Assembly (NCBI GenBank): GCA_029565675.1
Contig: JAKQNP010000019.1
Location: 1-64,000, forward strand
Length of the DNA: 64,000 nucleotides
Source: a bacterium
Lineage (GTDB): Bacteria; Zhuqueibacterota; Zhuqueibacteria; Residuimicrobiales; Oceaniaggregativiventaceae
Reading direction: 5' to 3'
This document shows, piece by piece, positions 37,837 through 45,573 of this stretch. The position numbers and the translations under genes are program-made. Each line of letters begins with the position of its first letter. The stretch's first letter is position 1. The notes below the pieces were generated by a model, which was given only the letters and a program-made list of their open reading frames with translations, was not told the DNA's origin and did no database searches.

Positions 37837-38868
37837 CTATTCGTTCTGCATCTGCTGCAATTCGCTTTGCAATTCCTGCAAAAGGGTCTCTTTTTCCGCC
37901 TCTGGTAAAAATGCCGCGCGAATTCCATTGAGGGCGATCTTGCCCATATCCTCGGCATCGAGATGAAAAGCCTCAGCAGCCAACCGATATTCATCGATCA
38001 ATTGTGTGCCGAAAACTTGCGGATCATCGGTATTCAGCGTTACGACCAATCCCCGGCGGAAAAAATCTCCGAATGGATGGTGTTTAATCGAATCGACAAC
38101 CTGCAATTTGAGGTTTGAAGTCAAACACTGGGTTAAAGGAATTTTTTTCTCTGCCAGATAATCGACGAGTTCCTGGTCCTTGTGAGCGTTGGTCCCATGG
38201 TCGATGCGTTCGACATGCAGATCGCGCAGAGCACTCCAGACGCTTTCCGGGCCGACAGCTTCGCCGGCATGCACCGTGCGGTGCAAGCCCAACTCGGCCG
38301 CGCGTTCAAACACAGCGCGAAATAGAGATTGTTTGAATTTGCGTTCATCTCCCGAGAGGCCGATCCCCACCACCAGCGGGTGATGCAGAGCGGCAACCTC
38401 CTCAACCAACCGCAACATCGAATCTGTGTTGTGGGATCGCAAAAGATTGATCGTCACTCGCGCCTGCAGCGAATATTGCGCTTGTGCTCTTTGCACACTG
38501 CGGTCGATGGCATCGATGATATCACAAAGAGCATATCCTTGACGAAGATATTTTTCAACTGCACAGTCGAATTCCACATAGCGAACATTTTCGCGTGCCA
38601 GGCAATCCAAAAGTTCGTCGGCAACCCGTGTCAAATCCTGCAGATGGCGGATGTTGTCGGATACCGTGCGCATGGCATCTACGAATTCGCCCAAATTATC
38701 GAACCGGTAAAAATCGCGGACCTGCTCAGCTCTTTTGGGCACGGATTTCATCCGGTTGCGGCGCATTAAATCGATGGCGGTTTCCGGACGGATCGAGCCT
38801 TCCAAATGCAAATGCAATTCCACTTTCGGCATCTTGACGATAAAATCGTGCAATTTTTTATCGATCAC
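37837..38868 (-). CDS. add: Adenosine deaminase
   Basis: A product of about 343 residues from a GTG start at 38868 (GAGGAG five bases upstream). It is a TIM-barrel metal-dependent hydrolase converting adenosine or deoxyadenosine to inosine. Metal and catalytic signatures are KVELHLHLEGSIRP (HxH), HRTVHAGEAVGPESVW (His, Glu), VERIDHGTNA (His) and VTLNTDDPQVF (Asp). Length and motif order match the adenosine/adenine deaminase family; adenine specificity cannot be excluded. It follows the DnaE2-like gene after about 90 bp and may be a downstream member of that transcript or independent. Confidence 0.93.
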   Translation of the reverse strand: MIDKKLHDFIVKMPKVELHLHLEGSIRPETAIDLMRRNRMKSVPKRAEQVRDFYRFDNLGEFVDAMRTVSDNIRHLQDLTRVADELLDCLARENVRYVEFDCAVEKYLRQGYALCDIIDAIDRSVQRAQAQYSLQARVTINLLRSHNTDSMLRLVEEVAALHHPLVVGIGLSGDERKFKQSLFRAVFERAAELGLHRTVHAGEAVGPESVWSALRDLHVERIDHGTNAHKDQELVDYLAEKKIPLTQCLTSNLKLQVVDSIKHHPFGDFFRRGLVVTLNTDDPQVFGTQLIDEYRLAAEAFHLDAEDMGKIALNGIRAAFLPEAEKETLLQELQSELQQMQNE

Positions 38869-38960
38869 ACCTTCTCCTCTGGTCGAGTTCTGGGCAAGCA
38901 AACGGCTTGCAAAATTAATGGAATCGCATCAGCTCTTGATCTATTTTACTAAACTCTTCA

Positions 38961-41900
38961 TTAAAATGAAAGTGTTTTGCTTATTTTTTTTATACCTCGA
39001 TCCATCAATGCAACTTTTTCCACATTCAGGGTTAATGCCCCTTGTTGTTCCTGCACCTGGCCGGTAAGCAAATAAGGCCGCGTCTTGTCCATCATGTGCA
39101 CAAACTCGGCAAATGCCCGCGGAAAAAACGTGGTTTCATAGATCGCTGTGGTATCTTCGAAACTCATGAACTCCATCAATTTCTGCGAGCGGGTGGTGAC
39201 GATTTTGCCGGTGATCAACCAGCCTACGGCAACCACGCGTTGGCCGACATGGCGATCAAAATCACAGGCGCGTACGGTCTTGATCTTTTGCAATTGCTGT
39301 TGATAGAGTTCCAACGGATGAACAGACGCCAAAAATCCCAGAGTTTCAATTTCCTGCTGCCACAGCAGCCGTTGGTCATAATTCCCGACCTGCGGCAAGC
39401 GGGACGGAGGGATCCGTTCTCCGGCAAAAAGAGACAACGTCGATGAATCGCTGTGCTGTTTTTGCGCTTGATGCCATTTGAGGTGCCACATGAGTTCCGG
39501 CCGCGTGCGCTGCGATTCCAACCTGTCAAAACAGCCGGCAAGGATGAGCAACTCCACATCTGCGGCATCGATCGAGACGCGCTGCAAAAAATCGGTAAAA
39601 GAGGCAAAACGCCCCTTTGTGCTTCGCTCCTCGAGCACCTGTTGCAAGCCGCGGTCGCTCAACCCCTTGATCTGCATCAAACCGATACGAATTTCATTTT
39701 TACAGCCGCGATAAACGCGGAAGCTCTCGTTGATGTCCGGCATGAGCACTCGCAAGCCCATGCGGCGAGCTTCAGAAAGATAGGCAAATGTCGAATAGTA
39801 ACCTCCCTGATTGGAGATCACCGCTGCCATGAATTCCGCCGGGAAATGCACGCGCAAATAGGCGGATTTATAGGAAACCAAGGCATAGGAAGCAGAGTGC
39901 GGTTTGCAAAAACTGTAGCCGCAAAAACTCTCGATCATCTGCCAGATCTGTTCACAAATCCCTGCGTCCACCCCGCGTACCTGGGCATCGGCAAAAAAAC
40001 GCAGCTTGAAATCGTGCAGTTTTTTCGCTTTGTGCTTTTTCGACAGCACCTTGCGCAATTCGTCGGCATCAGCTGCTGAAAATCCGGCTAAAGCGATCGC
40101 CACTTTGGCGACATCTTCCTGATAGACCATGATGCCATAGGTTTCTTTGAGAATCTCCTGCAGCAAAGGATGCAGTGGCCGATAAGAACCGCCTTTCAGA
40201 CGGCGAACATATTCCGCGATCATTTCATTGGCGGCCGGCCGAATAATCGAGCTGTGGATGACCAGATGCGCGAAATCCCCTTTGCCGGTTTTTTTCTGCA
40301 GCTGGCGCATCGCCGGAGATTCGACATAAAAGACGCCGATCGTGTCGCCGCGCGACAACAAACGGCAGGTTGCGGCGTCGTCGAGCGGATTCCAGGTCGA
40401 GTAATCGATGCGAATACCGGTGTTCTTTTCCACCGCCGCCAAAGTGTCGCGGATCACGGCCAATGAGCGGTTGCCGAGAATGTCCATCTTGATCAGGCCC
40501 ATTTCTTCGGCCTGATCTTTTTCCCACTGCACCACCTGCACCGCCGGATTGGGCTGACCTTCTGCATGGTTAAGGCGAAGGATTTTTTTCGCCGGCTGAA
40601 CCGGCACATAGTTGTCCAAATGATCCGGAACGATGACCACCCCGCCGCAATGCACCGACAAATGGCGCGGGAAACCGCGGATCGCTTCCGCCATTTGCAG
40701 AATTTCAGGCCAGGGCGCGTGCAACTCGACGCCTTTGTATATCGGATGTATCGCGATGAGATCAGCGATATTGCCGGGCTGATAAAAAGAGCGCATTTTT
40801 TTCGTGACAGCGCCGATCTCGTTGTCCGACAGGCCATAGACTTTGGCGATTTCCCGCACCGCTGAACGCGCCTTGAAACAATTGTGATTGGCGATCATGG
40901 CAGTGCGCTGCGGCCCATATTTGCGATGAATATAGTCGAGCACATCATCGCGTTCATCCCACGGAAAATCGACATCGATATCGGGAGGATCGCGACGGCC
41001 GAGATTCAAAAAACGCTCAAAGAACAGATCATAACGAATGGGATCCACATGGGTGATACCCAAACAATAGCTCACCAGACTTGCCGCTGCGGATCCACGA
41101 CCACAAGTTCGCGGCGCCTGGCGAACAATATCCGCCACCACCAGGAAATAGGGCGCAAAACCTTTTTCCTCGATGATCCGCATTTCGCGCTGCAGCCGTT
41201 CGCGAATGACCGCATCGATACGGCCATAACGCCAGCGAATCCCTTGCCATACCTGGTGTCGCAATTCGCTGAGTGCATCCTCGCCGTTGGGTCCGCGATA
41301 AGCGGTAAAAATATGCCGCCCGATTCCAAATTCAAATGTACAGTCGTCAGCGATCTTTTGCGTATGTCTAATTGCATCAGGAGAGTCACAAAAACTGTCC
41401 TGCATCATCTGTGGGGATTTGAGGAAAGCTTGGGGAGAAACCACTTCGCTGTCAGCCACTCGATCTAGGGTCGTGTTGAGATCGATCGCCCGCAGCAAGC
41501 GGTGCACGGACCAGTCCGCGGCTTGACAGAAATAGGCGGCATTGGTTGCGACCACCGGCAGATTCAGCTCGCCGGCCAAATGGCGGATCTCTTCGCGATT
41601 GGCGTGTGGCACGAGCTCGGCATAGAGGTCAAAACTTCGCGTAACATCGGCCAACGACCGCAGCAGCCCGGCATCTGAGCTGAGAACGACGCAATCCCCG
41701 CCGTCGGCGAGCAGCGCCGCTGCCAGGTCCAGTGCCGCATCGAAATGAATCCGGCGGATCAGACTGCACAGCACCCGGTAACCGTTGGCGGTGCGCGCCA
41801 GAACAACCGCGCGCTGACCAGAAGTGACCAACTCGGCGCCGATCAGAGGTTGCAGGCGATGCACCCGGGCAGACTCCAAAAACCAGCCCAATCCATACAA

Positions 41901-42029
41901 ACCGTTGCGGTCGGTCAGAGCCAAATGGGTCATCCCCATACGGGCGGCGGCTTCGCACAACGCCTCGATGCTCGATGCACCGCGACAAAGGCTGTAGTGA
42001 GAATGGACATGCAAATGCACAAAGCCCAT
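38961..42029 (-). CDS. dnaE2: DNA polymerase III alpha subunit, DnaE2-type (error-prone)
   Basis: A 1022-residue C-family polymerase. It has an N-terminal PHP domain (HLHVHSHYSLCRGASS, HLALTDRNGLYGL), then the palm and fingers with TCGRGSAAASLVSYCLG and the catalytic aspartates in DPPDIDVDFPWDERDD. GIMVYQEDV and SFCGYSFCKPHSASYALVSY follow, then an HhH segment and an OB domain (RVVAVGWLITGKIVTTRS). The length (about 1000, shorter than replicative DnaE1) and its position behind lexA and a Y-family gene identify the DnaE2/ImuC type of SOS-induced translesion polymerases. It begins 27 bp after the GNAT-like gene, so it is probably the last gene of the lexA cassette. Confidence 0.88.
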   Translation of the reverse strand: MGFVHLHVHSHYSLCRGASSIEALCEAAARMGMTHLALTDRNGLYGLGWFLESARVHRLQPLIGAELVTSGQRAVVLARTANGYRVLCSLIRRIHFDAALDLAAALLADGGDCVVLSSDAGLLRSLADVTRSFDLYAELVPHANREEIRHLAGELNLPVVATNAAYFCQAADWSVHRLLRAIDLNTTLDRVADSEVVSPQAFLKSPQMMQDSFCDSPDAIRHTQKIADDCTFEFGIGRHIFTAYRGPNGEDALSELRHQVWQGIRWRYGRIDAVIRERLQREMRIIEEKGFAPYFLVVADIVRQAPRTCGRGSAAASLVSYCLGITHVDPIRYDLFFERFLNLGRRDPPDIDVDFPWDERDDVLDYIHRKYGPQRTAMIANHNCFKARSAVREIAKVYGLSDNEIGAVTKKMRSFYQPGNIADLIAIHPIYKGVELHAPWPEILQMAEAIRGFPRHLSVHCGGVVIVPDHLDNYVPVQPAKKILRLNHAEGQPNPAVQVVQWEKDQAEEMGLIKMDILGNRSLAVIRDTLAAVEKNTGIRIDYSTWNPLDDAATCRLLSRGDTIGVFYVESPAMRQLQKKTGKGDFAHLVIHSSIIRPAANEMIAEYVRRLKGGSYRPLHPLLQEILKETYGIMVYQEDVAKVAIALAGFSAADADELRKVLSKKHKAKKLHDFKLRFFADAQVRGVDAGICEQIWQMIESFCGYSFCKPHSASYALVSYKSAYLRVHFPAEFMAAVISNQGGYYSTFAYLSEARRMGLRVLMPDINESFRVYRGCKNEIRIGLMQIKGLSDRGLQQVLEERSTKGRFASFTDFLQRVSIDAADVELLILAGCFDRLESQRTRPELMWHLKWHQAQKQHSDSSTLSLFAGERIPPSRLPQVGNYDQRLLWQQEIETLGFLASVHPLELYQQQLQKIKTVRACDFDRHVGQRVVAVGWLITGKIVTTRSQKLMEFMSFEDTTAIYETTFFPRAFAEFVHMMDKTRPYLLTGQVQEQQGALTLNVEKVALMDRGIKKISKTLSF

Positions 42030-42056
42030 GACCCCTCCACGAGCACCGCTGCCGGC

Positions 42057-43217
42057 TCAGTCGATCGGCTTTTGAAAAATGGTATAAATTTTGGACACCT
42101 TGGCGTTCATCCACTCAGCCACCCGATTGACCAGCACGTTGTCTTCTAAAACCCAACCGAGATCGGCGTGATCGTATTGGCTGTGCAGGGAATAGATCTT
42201 TTGCTTCCACAGCATCACGCTGTCGATGCCGAGGTTGTGAAACTTGCGCTTTACCCCCATATAACCGAGGCGATAGCTCTTGATCCGCCCCTTGCCGATC
42301 AACATTCGGGCGGCGCGCAGCAGCTCACAGCGCCGACAAAACCGCGTCAGATGCATGCGTTCGAAAATATTGGGCACCCCGCCAAAAAAACCGGCCAGCT
42401 CACCCTTGACATAGACGAACAAAAAAAGTTTCTTGTTCATCACCAACATCATATCCTTGACCGTGGCAAAAAATTCTTCCTCGGTAAACGGCACGAAACC
42501 CCAATTGTCGTTCCAGGCGTCATTGTAGACCTCGAACATTTCGCGGCGGCGTTCGGCAAAAGGCCGCTCATTCCAGGTTTCAAAGGTGACGCCGTAGCGC
42601 TGGATGACTTTTTGCGACACGCGTTCGAGTTTTTCCACCATGGGTTCACGCGTGGTCACCCACCACGACTTGACCTGTTTGACCGGCACGAAACCGTTCT
42701 CGCGCAACAGCGCCTCATAATAGGGCTTGTTATAATGATAATAGACCACTGGAACGGTGTCGAATCCCATGGTCATGAGTCCGGGCGTGGCTTCGTTGAC
42801 CGGCAAATTCTGCGGTCCACGCATCGCATCCATGCCTTGTTCATGCAGCCATGCCGCCGCCGCATCGAGCAGCAGCCGGGCCACCTGTTTGTCGTCGATG
42901 CACTCAAATTGGCCGAAGAAACCAACTCGATCGTTCCAATGCCGGTTGTGGTTGTGGTTGACAAAGGCGTTGCAGCGGCCGACAACCTGGTCACCCTGCA
43001 AGGCAAGGAAAAATCGCATGTCCGCATGTTTAAAAAAAAGATTTTGGGGTTCAAAAAAACCGGTCATGCCGATCAGCTTGTTGCCAAGATATTCGAAATC
43101 GAGCAACGGCACGTACTGCGGATCCTGGCGATAGTGGCCCCAATGAAAATCGATGAACCGTTTCAGCCATTTGCGATCATTCGGTTGATTGGAAAACGAC
43201 TGAATCCTGGTTTGCAT
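42057..43217 (-). CDS. YghO/GNAT-like protein inside the mutagenesis cassette
   Basis: A product of about 386 residues. The start at 43217 follows AAAGGAG with ideal spacing; an in-frame ATG at 43280 is weaker. The sequence resembles the widespread uncharacterised YghO-type acyltransferase-fold family: YVPLLDFEYLGNK, HADMRFFLALQGDQVVGRCN, RVGFFGQFECIDDKQVAR, MDAMRGPQNLPVNEATPGLM, NKPYYEALLRENGF and FGGVPNIFERM. Two GNAT-like halves are likely. The substrate is unknown. Its place between the ImuB-like gene (102 bp gap) and dnaE2 (27 bp gap), where ImuA would be expected in the classical cassette, makes it a candidate SOS-regulated gene. Confidence 0.7.
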   Translation of the reverse strand: MQTRIQSFSNQPNDRKWLKRFIDFHWGHYRQDPQYVPLLDFEYLGNKLIGMTGFFEPQNLFFKHADMRFFLALQGDQVVGRCNAFVNHNHNRHWNDRVGFFGQFECIDDKQVARLLLDAAAAWLHEQGMDAMRGPQNLPVNEATPGLMTMGFDTVPVVYYHYNKPYYEALLRENGFVPVKQVKSWWVTTREPMVEKLERVSQKVIQRYGVTFETWNERPFAERRREMFEVYNDAWNDNWGFVPFTEEEFFATVKDMMLVMNKKLFLFVYVKGELAGFFGGVPNIFERMHLTRFCRRCELLRAARMLIGKGRIKSYRLGYMGVKRKFHNLGIDSVMLWKQKIYSLHSQYDHADLGWVLEDNVLVNRVAEWMNAKVSKIYTIFQKPID

Positions 43218-43319
43218 AACGTCTCCTTTGCCTAAGGCCAAAAGCGAATCGCACCAACCCCCAAAATCTATTTTGATCAACTCCAGGCAGCTCTTGCCCG
43301 GCGCCCAAGCAGCCGACGC

Positions 43320-44480
43320 CTAGGCTGCGCGGCCAAAACCAACGGCTTCGTCACCATAGCGATCGCGGATTTTGTCCATCGCCGCAGTAAGCAAACTCGC
43401 CCGCGTGGTTGTGGGAGCAAAGAGCAACAGTTGTTGTGACGGCGGCTGCAAGTTGAGCAAACGCACGGCAATCGTGCGCACCCGCACCCGGCGCTGCAAC
43501 AAACGTTCGAGCCCGCCATCGACCTCCGCGACCCACTCGCTGTCGTCTGCAGTCGGCGGCAATTTGACTTCCACCCTGTGTTCGCGATAATCGGAATAGC
43601 GCACTTCAAACGCCAGAACTGCAGCCACCAGCTTTTGACGCCGCAACCGCCGGCCGGCGCGGTCCACGAGGTGGAAAACCGCGCGGCGCACCACCCGAAA
43701 ATCGTTGCTGTCGGGTTGCAGCGTCTCGGTCTCGACAATCTGCGGCGGCCGCCGCGATGGCTGCACCGGGCGGTTATCGATGCCGCGCGAGCGCTGATAC
43801 AACAGCAGGCCAAACCGGCCAAAAACCATCTGCAGATGCTCGCTCGAAACACCGACAATTTCGCGGATCACCCGGATATTGAGCATGGCGAGCTGCTGAC
43901 GCACCGAACGGCCGACACCGGGCAAAAAGGCGACATCGAGCGGCGCGAGAAAATCAGGCTCATCACCGGCACGAACATCGCACAAACCGCCTACTTTGCC
44001 GGAACGGTCGATCACATCCGACGCCACCTTGCTGACCAGCTTGTTGCCAGCCACGCCGGCAGTGACCTGCAGCCGCAACCGCTCGCGAATCTCCCGTTGC
44101 GCCCGCACCGCCGCATCGCCAACGCTCCCAAACAACCGATCTGAACCGGTCATGTCCAGATAGACATCGCCGCCATGCAACGGTTCGATCAACGGCGAAA
44201 AACGCTGCAACAGCTGCATCACCGCCGCATCTGCCCGCGCATAGAGATCCGGATTGGGCGGCAAAACCGTCAAATCCCGACACCGCTGCATCGCCGTCTC
44301 CAAAGGCATGCCCCGATAAATACCCTGACCCCGTGCCGCCAAAGAGGCGGAAACCACCAGCGCCCGGCTGGCCGTCTTGACCGCCACTGCCGCCGGACGC
44401 CCCCGCAATCGCGGCTCCATGATCTCTTCGACCGCAATCGGAAAATCCGCCACCGATAGATGGATCACTGACCGACTCAT
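43320..44480 (-). CDS. Y-family DNA polymerase homologue, ImuB-like
   Basis: A 386-residue Y-family protein starting 4 bp after the lexA stop. The fold is clear: ASLAARGQGIYRGMPLETAMQ, VTAGVAGNKLVSKVASD, the HhH FLPGVGRSVRQQL and a little-finger region (RGIDNRPVQPSRRPPQ). The catalytic positions are altered. The first motif reads IHLSVADF instead of IHxDxDxF (Asp to Ser9, Asp to Ala11), and the SxDE site reads HGGD (Asp to Gly104, Glu to Asp105). This resembles ImuB, a non-catalytic Y-family adaptor. QQLLLF near residue 355 is a likely beta-clamp-binding motif. Predicted role: bring the DnaE2-type polymerase to the clamp at lesions. Confidence 0.78.
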   Translation of the reverse strand: MSRSVIHLSVADFPIAVEEIMEPRLRGRPAAVAVKTASRALVVSASLAARGQGIYRGMPLETAMQRCRDLTVLPPNPDLYARADAAVMQLLQRFSPLIEPLHGGDVYLDMTGSDRLFGSVGDAAVRAQREIRERLRLQVTAGVAGNKLVSKVASDVIDRSGKVGGLCDVRAGDEPDFLAPLDVAFLPGVGRSVRQQLAMLNIRVIREIVGVSSEHLQMVFGRFGLLLYQRSRGIDNRPVQPSRRPPQIVETETLQPDSNDFRVVRRAVFHLVDRAGRRLRRQKLVAAVLAFEVRYSDYREHRVEVKLPPTADDSEWVAEVDGGLERLLQRRVRVRTIAVRLLNLQPPSQQLLLFAPTTTRASLLTAAMDKIRDRYGDEAVGFGRAA

Positions 44481-44484
44481 CGCC

Positions 44485-45108
44485 CTATTCCACACTTTCC
44501 CGCACCAACGCCACCACCCGCCCCTGAATTGACCAGTCGCCCTCAGGATAAATGTCAGCGTAGCGCGGATTCTCAGCCTGCAAAAATCGCCGCCCCTCCC
44601 GCTGCATCAAACGCTTGACCGTCGCCTCGCTGCCGCCAAGCAATGCCACCACGATGGCACCCACATCGGCAACGCTCTGAGAACGCACCACCACCAAATC
44701 ACCATCCAAAATGCCCGCCCCCGCCATGCTGTCCCCTTGCACACGCAACAAATAGTGAACGGCCGACCCGGAAACCAGATAGCGCGGCACCATCACGTAA
44801 TGGTCGATGTTCTCCTCTGCCAACATCGGCACCCCGGCCGTAACCGAACCGACCAGGGGCAACGACACGCCCGGCGCATCCAGCAATGACTCGAACGAAT
44901 CGACCAACTGGATCCCGCGCGCCTTGTTGCGCTCCCAGACAATATAACCCTTGCGCGCCAAAACCGCCAGATACTTGACGGCAGTGTTGCGCGACGACAC
45001 GCCCAACGCTTCGGCCAAATCCTTCAGCGTCGGTGGATAACCGCGTTCGCGAATGCTGCGCACAATCAACTGCAACACCCGTTGCTGTTTTTCTGTGAGT
45101 TTTTCCAT
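44485..45108 (-). CDS. lexA: LexA repressor
   Basis: A 207-residue SOS repressor/autoprotease. The N-terminal winged helix-turn-helix includes LTEKQQRVLQLIVRSI, YPPTLKDLAEALGVSS and LARKGYIV. The C-terminal peptidase S24 domain has the Ala-Gly cleavage bond in GSVTAGVP, the nucleophilic serine in RVQGDSMAGAGI and the catalytic lysine in EATVKRLM. RecA-stimulated self-cleavage would derepress its targets. The start at 45108 is chosen because AGGCGG lies six bases upstream. It heads the cassette lexA-imuB-like-GNAT-dnaE2 and almost certainly regulates it from the promoter at 45180-45218. Confidence 0.95.
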   Translation of the reverse strand: MEKLTEKQQRVLQLIVRSIRERGYPPTLKDLAEALGVSSRNTAVKYLAVLARKGYIVWERNKARGIQLVDSFESLLDAPGVSLPLVGSVTAGVPMLAEENIDHYVMVPRYLVSGSAVHYLLRVQGDSMAGAGILDGDLVVVRSQSVADVGAIVVALLGGSEATVKRLMQREGRRFLQAENPRYADIYPEGDWSIQGRVVALVRESVE

Positions 45109-45179
45109 GGCCATCCGCCTTCTTATGCCACCAATCCATCTGGCCAACAAATTCGCCTGCAGCCATCATGGTGAACATA

Positions 45180-45218
45180 TTGACACCCAATTATAATCAT
45201 TCGGCGGACAAGTGTCAA
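45180..45218 (-). promoter_or_regulatory. Perfect-consensus sigma70 promoter of the lexA cassette with inverted repeat
   Basis: On the minus strand TTGACA (45218-45213) and TATAAT (45195-45190) are both exact consensus hexamers with the optimal 17-bp spacing, about 80 bp before the lexA start. An inverted repeat TTGACAC (45218-45212) / GTGTCAA (45186-45180) brackets the promoter. It could be a LexA operator or allow repression by occlusion. It is unlike the E. coli (CTGT-N8-ACAG) and Bacillus (GAAC-N4-GTTC) SOS boxes. The promoter is strongly supported by sequence; the operator is inferred. Confidence 0.7.
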
Positions 45219-45237: not shown

Positions 45238-45465
45238 TCAAATATCGGTCAGATTGAGCAAGGTAAGCAGGCGAGCGTGTACGGCTGGCGGCACATCCTT
45301 TTGCTGCAAACAGCGATAAAGGGCAACCGTTTTGCGCATCGATTCGACCCCGTTGCGACAATTCGCGCACTGCTGCAGGTGGATGCGCAGTTGCTGGCAG
45401 ACTTCGGAATCGATATCCTCCGCCAGCTCATCACAGATCTGGTGAAGAAGTTTATCGCAATCCAT
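45238..45465 (-). CDS. Putative zinc-finger anti-sigma factor
   Basis: A 75-residue protein starting at 45465 (GAGGTG upstream). It carries the zf-HC2 type pattern CDKLLHQICDELAED, then LRIHLQQCANC (His-x3-Cys-x2-Cys), typical of the zinc-binding anti-sigma domain of ECF anti-sigma factors. There is no transmembrane segment, so it would be a soluble, possibly redox-sensitive form. No sigma factor gene is adjacent, which is unusual because such genes normally pair. It lies just upstream of the lexA promoter on the same strand. A role in sigma factor control is inferred from the domain. Confidence 0.7.
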   Translation of the reverse strand: MDCDKLLHQICDELAEDIDSEVCQQLRIHLQQCANCRNGVESMRKTVALYRCLQQKDVPPAVHARLLTLLNLTDI

Positions 45466-45573
45466 ATTCACCTCATCGAAAGCATATAGGAAATTCACTT
45501 CCGCAGAGGCCAATGCTTCCGCCTGCGGATACCAGTTGGATGCATCGACCTGGCATAAAGATTCAAAACCGGC

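Follow-up and report, generated by a model that had tools for sequence, protein, structure and literature searches.

What is a gene of the YghO family of tandem GNAT N-acyltransferases doing between the two polymerase-family genes of a LexA-headed mutagenesis cassette, and is its presence connected with the lack of ImuA? The question is raised by a window of 64,000 nucleotides (the whole stretch of DNA analysed here) from a candidate division KSB1 MAG; most of its named relatives are KSB1 MAGs too.

Genes of the cassette

Four genes, lexA, imuB-like, yghO and dnaE2, follow one another on the same strand (Table 1), separated by gaps of 4 bp, 102 bp and 27 bp, respectively. Re-reading the sequence confirmed the coordinates, order, strand and spacing given for them in an initial annotation of this DNA.

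Table 1. Features of the cassette and its surroundings, with their positions in the window.
Feature	Position	Strand	Basis or remark
Adenosine deaminase family gene	37837-38901	-	Often 3' of dnaE2 in the order
dnaE2-type second DNA polymerase III alpha subunit	38961-42029	-	PHP, DNA_pol3_alpha, finger and HHH_6 domains
yghO-type tandem GNAT N-acyltransferase, clade YghO-A	42057-43217	-	Homology, tree, predicted fold
imuB-type inactive Y-family polymerase	43320-44480	-	Clamp-like motif; tail weakly RecA-N-terminus-like
lexA, SOS repressor	44485-45108	-	Pfam LexA_DNA_bind and Peptidase_S24; TIGR00498 above cut-off
Putative LexA operator GGTGTCAATATGTTCACC (GGTG-N10-CACC)	45170-45187	-	Immediately past the -10 box of the lexA promoter
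Sigma-70-type promoter TTGACA-17-TATAAT	45190-45218	-	12/12 consensus, upstream of lexA
Small anti-sigma-like protein	45238-45513	-	TIGR03988, under its cut-off

By its sequence, the repressor is certainly LexA (187 bits on TIGR00498, against a cut-off of 111). In the Y-family protein, HLSVAD and HGGDVYLD replace HIDMDA and SIDEAFLD of the reference, the genome's own DinB-like protein; because the catalytic Asp/Glu pairs are thus lost and a QLLLF clamp-like motif is present, the label ImuB-like is correct. A QLxLF clamp-like motif is also found in most ImuB orthologues of the aligned cassettes. The same DnaE model that gives 1353 bits for the genome's DnaE1, encoded elsewhere, gives about 655 bits for the window copy, which on sequence grounds is a second copy, of the DnaE2 type, although it scores 628 on the subfamily model PRK05672, under the cut-off of 939. 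At about 1020 amino acids, with an end just past the OB-like match, this protein has no space for the C-terminal domain that is absent from DnaE2 (PMC3919608).

At the margins of the cassette, the adenosine deaminase family gene may share the transcript of dnaE2, and within the order the gene for the small anti-sigma-like protein often adjoins lexA on its 5' side. One genome (G002) has an 854-amino-acid gene between lexA and imuB (L070:10825-13389).

Promoter, putative operator and proposed SOS control

The motif formed by the putative operator, GGTG-N10-CACC, also lies no more than 130 bp ahead of 15 of the 19 lexA genes of relatives; the four without it all belong to families outside the order. 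Scanning ahead of recA revealed no such site; a single match elsewhere in the genome, ahead of a trehalose-6-phosphate-synthase-like gene, was put down to chance. No promoter was found in the 102-bp gap between imuB and yghO, nor was any unusual RNA structure, and the gap between yghO and dnaE2 measures 8-27 bp in several genomes. Because a consensus promoter precedes lexA and none was found between imuB and yghO, the sequence makes it likely that lexA, imuB, yghO and dnaE2 are co-transcribed, and the promoter of lexA, with the putative operator, probably places the cassette under SOS control.

The genome encodes a second LexA (44% identity; G000:C32:161349-161957, L216), about 11 kb from the DinB-like gene, and the lexA of the window may be specific to the cassette. 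Family f6 has two GGTG-N10-CACC sites, one for lexA and another for imuB-dnaE2 (L083:6847 and 7571).

Absence of ImuA

The initial annotation had called the cassette ImuA-less, a description that holds: across the source genome, the ImuA model has one weak match, inside a RecA-sized ORF, where recA itself was read. Nor does the model pass its cut-off in any of 60 genomes, each of which has at most one weak match, mostly within a RecA-sized ORF. YghO occupies the operon slot where a third protein would be expected, and might on that account be thought to replace ImuA functionally. We give this idea hardly any credence: its predicted fold is that of a GNAT and not of RecA, the ImuB protein itself bears a putative RecA-like tail, and sister cassettes without YghO are likewise without ImuA. 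The substitution was accordingly rejected, ImuA being missing throughout the class. Since lexA-imuB-dnaE2 cassettes lacking both ImuA and YghO exist outside the order (e.g. in families f6, f7, f8, f12 and f13), the loss of ImuA is a trait of the lineage, unconnected with YghO.

ImuA-less operons of lexA, a Y-family gene and dnaE2 have already been reported; as described in the available part of that account, the Y-family protein of such variants carries a motif resembling the RecA N-terminus, and RecA is proposed as a stand-in for ImuA (Timinskas and Venclovas 2019, PMC6511836). In 8 of 11 proteins that we tested, the score of the ImuB tail against the RecA N-terminus was reached by 0-6 of 500 shuffles; for the window protein the resemblance is weak (42 of 500). 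Because the tail of most of these proteins resembles the RecA N-terminus, RecA may, by analogy with the published variants, fill the role of ImuA in this cassette.

YghO family, fold and likely substrate

The YghO-like label is also correct: the protein matches E. coli YghO over its full length (28% identity over 395 columns, E 8e-46). E. coli yghO is listed as the counterpart of Caulobacter CC_1154, a dihydroceramide N-acyltransferase (PMC9386255), and the link of the window gene to CC_1154 rests on this published correspondence. The source genome contains three YghO-family genes, the window copy included, and an SPT (serine palmitoyltransferase) gene that adjoins a CerR-like epimerase gene. 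In many genomes of the class, a paralogous clade (clade B) lies directly 3' of SPT; for YghO-A, the clade of the window protein, linkage to SPT or CerR was looked for and not found. A YghO homologue is present in every one of the 50 genomes with a strong SPT match, and the five genomes without such a homologue are all among the 10 without strong SPT (Fisher p 5e-5, a value that ignores ancestry).

The predicted model of the window protein is a tandem GNAT (pLDDT 87.5). A sequence-based search for a solved relative yielded none that was convincing; by structure, glucosamine N-acetyltransferase and mycothiol synthase match best among PDB entries, and most of the closest solved folds are tandem GNATs whose substrates are small molecules. 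YghO probably makes lipids and has no part in mutagenesis, and by analogy with its family, YghO-A most likely N-acylates a sphingoid base or another amino-lipid precursor. Counting against this reading, YghO-A stands on a long branch outside the SPT-linked clade, and its substrate could, from the sequences, differ from that of the latter; E. coli YghO shares 35-37% identity with the SPT-linked clade but 28% with YghO-A, whose substrate may therefore be another amine.

Distribution of YghO-A and its linkage to the cassette

A branch of 2.52 with 100/100 support sets YghO-A sharply apart from its paralogues, and the clade is strongly conserved, with a mean column identity of 71% among 26 aligned sequences from several phyla. 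The refuting condition named in the initial annotation, a random location of the YghO-like gene in relatives, gave a divided answer, with strong linkage within the window's order and unrelated locations outside it. Of the 20 carriers within the order, 13 have YghO-A next to imuB and/or dnaE2 (several others end at contig edges), nine of these 13 between the two; these contexts span three families, and the association is therefore not the accident of a single genome. Where a genome has both YghO-A and a cassette ImuB, the two are linked in 11 of 15 cases within the order, versus 0 of 11 elsewhere in the phylum (statistical tests on these counts ignore shared ancestry, and some of the latter are short contigs); several unlinked cassettes outside the order can be read from end to end, and yghO is absent from them. 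Conversely, YghO-A is present in KSB1 genomes where neither cassette gene, imuB or dnaE2, turned up (G010, G014, G024, G043 and others), and in Cloacimonadota, Spirochaetota and others, with unrelated neighbours. YghO and the cassette are independent in their distribution.

Other genes share this neighbourhood. A DUF1848 or TIM-barrel gene sometimes shares the slot of yghO in cassettes of the order. In family f2, the DUF1848 gene, with CxxxCxxC near the C-terminus of its product, is placed next to imuB or yghO, or between the two (L067:5509-6432; also L068, L071 and L118). The TIM barrel, sugar-epimerase-like and of the AP_endonuc_2 Pfam family, accompanies yghO inside and outside the cassette (L072:8811-9755; L070, L073, L078, L089, L090, L096 and L102), and in G007 its gene follows imuB where yghO is absent. 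In Cloacimonadota, a PlsY-like acyltransferase gene precedes YghO-A, which forms a tandem array with other YghO copies; the arrangement there (L139-L154), a YggS-type and a PlsY-like gene followed by two or three tandem YghO paralogues, is a candidate lipid-acylation operon. Outside both the order and Cloacimonadota, the neighbours of YghO-A include SpoIIE-type phosphatases and transporters.

The initial annotation had suggested that YghO might acylate a mutasome component. A regulator of this kind, acting on ImuB, DnaE2, RecA or the clamp, would suit a gene placed between imuB and dnaE2 and tightly spaced to the latter. We nevertheless regard it as very improbable, since YghO is common apart from imuB and dnaE2 (several genomes and phyla) and cassettes that lack YghO are common too, the closest solved folds belong mostly to small-molecule enzymes, and the family is tied to sphingolipid synthesis; the evidence does not support a role for YghO in mutagenesis.

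The other suggestion made there, that of a passenger, fits better, given YghO without the cassette, the cassette without YghO, and a family tied to sphingolipid N-acylation. We are fairly confident that a gene for a lipid or small-molecule N-acyltransferase moved once into an ImuA-less SOS cassette, where it is a co-transcribed, functionally separate passenger; its distribution in the order would follow from one insertion, then inheritance and some dispersal. Counting against a passenger, YghO-A lies beside imuB or dnaE2 even where the cassette has split, an adjacency that could reflect a functional tie.

Selection might instead have put YghO under LexA, with DNA damage raising the level of an N-acylated (sphingo)lipid that might alter division or envelope permeability during translesion synthesis. 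Such SOS-linked membrane remodelling would be consistent with a position behind the putative LexA operator that is kept in three families of the order, and with a second enzyme, the sugar-epimerase-like TIM barrel, beside YghO in some of its genomes. A single insertion and inheritance can, however, account for the position, and scans ahead of free-standing yghO orthologues outside the order found no GGTG-N10-CACC, a motif valid for only part of the class. As a reading of the sequences, remodelling strikes us as unlikely, and the specific claim that the SOS response directly induces an N-acylated membrane lipid, coupling translesion synthesis to the envelope, as a little more doubtful still.

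Proposed model and comparison with known systems

In the passenger model that we prefer, a gene of the yghO/ceramide-synthase family would have entered the cassette by a single insertion, at or close to the ancestor of this KSB1 order. LexA would repress the promoter ahead of lexA until DNA damage lifts repression, and one transcript would then yield LexA, ImuB, YghO and DnaE2. ImuB would dock DnaE2 onto the clamp, and RecA, binding the RecA-like tail of ImuB, would do the job of ImuA, while the tandem-GNAT YghO would N-acylate a small amine independently of the mutasome.

With this locus, KSB1 gains an ImuA-less type of cassette whose LexA motif can be tested. The locus also shows that unrelated enzyme genes can occupy the position between imuB and dnaE2 over long evolutionary times. 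If a lipid enzyme is truly SOS-induced here, DNA damage and membrane-lipid synthesis would be joined in one operon.

Three known systems invite comparison. With the bacterial ceramide synthase YghO/CC_1154 (bCerS, aca), the window protein shares full-length YghO homology and a conserved WxxNxGFVPF-type core, and paralogues of its gene stand beside SPT; unlike that family, YghO-A forms a separate clade without SPT linkage and lies, in this order, within a probable SOS operon. The imuA-imuB-dnaE2 cassette is similar in its presumed LexA control, inactive ImuB and second DnaE; the window cassette differs from it in having no ImuA and, apparently, no long C-terminal ImuB extension, since its ImuB is only about 386 amino acids long. 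The third comparison is with the ImuA-less lexA/Y-family/dnaE2 operons (PMC6511836), which, in the available part of their description, have the same genes, no imuA and a RecA-N-terminus-like motif in the Y-family protein, a motif to which the tail of the window copy shows a weak resemblance. That part mentions no acyltransferase, whereas a YghO-family gene is inserted here and a TIM-barrel or DUF1848 gene in relatives of the window.
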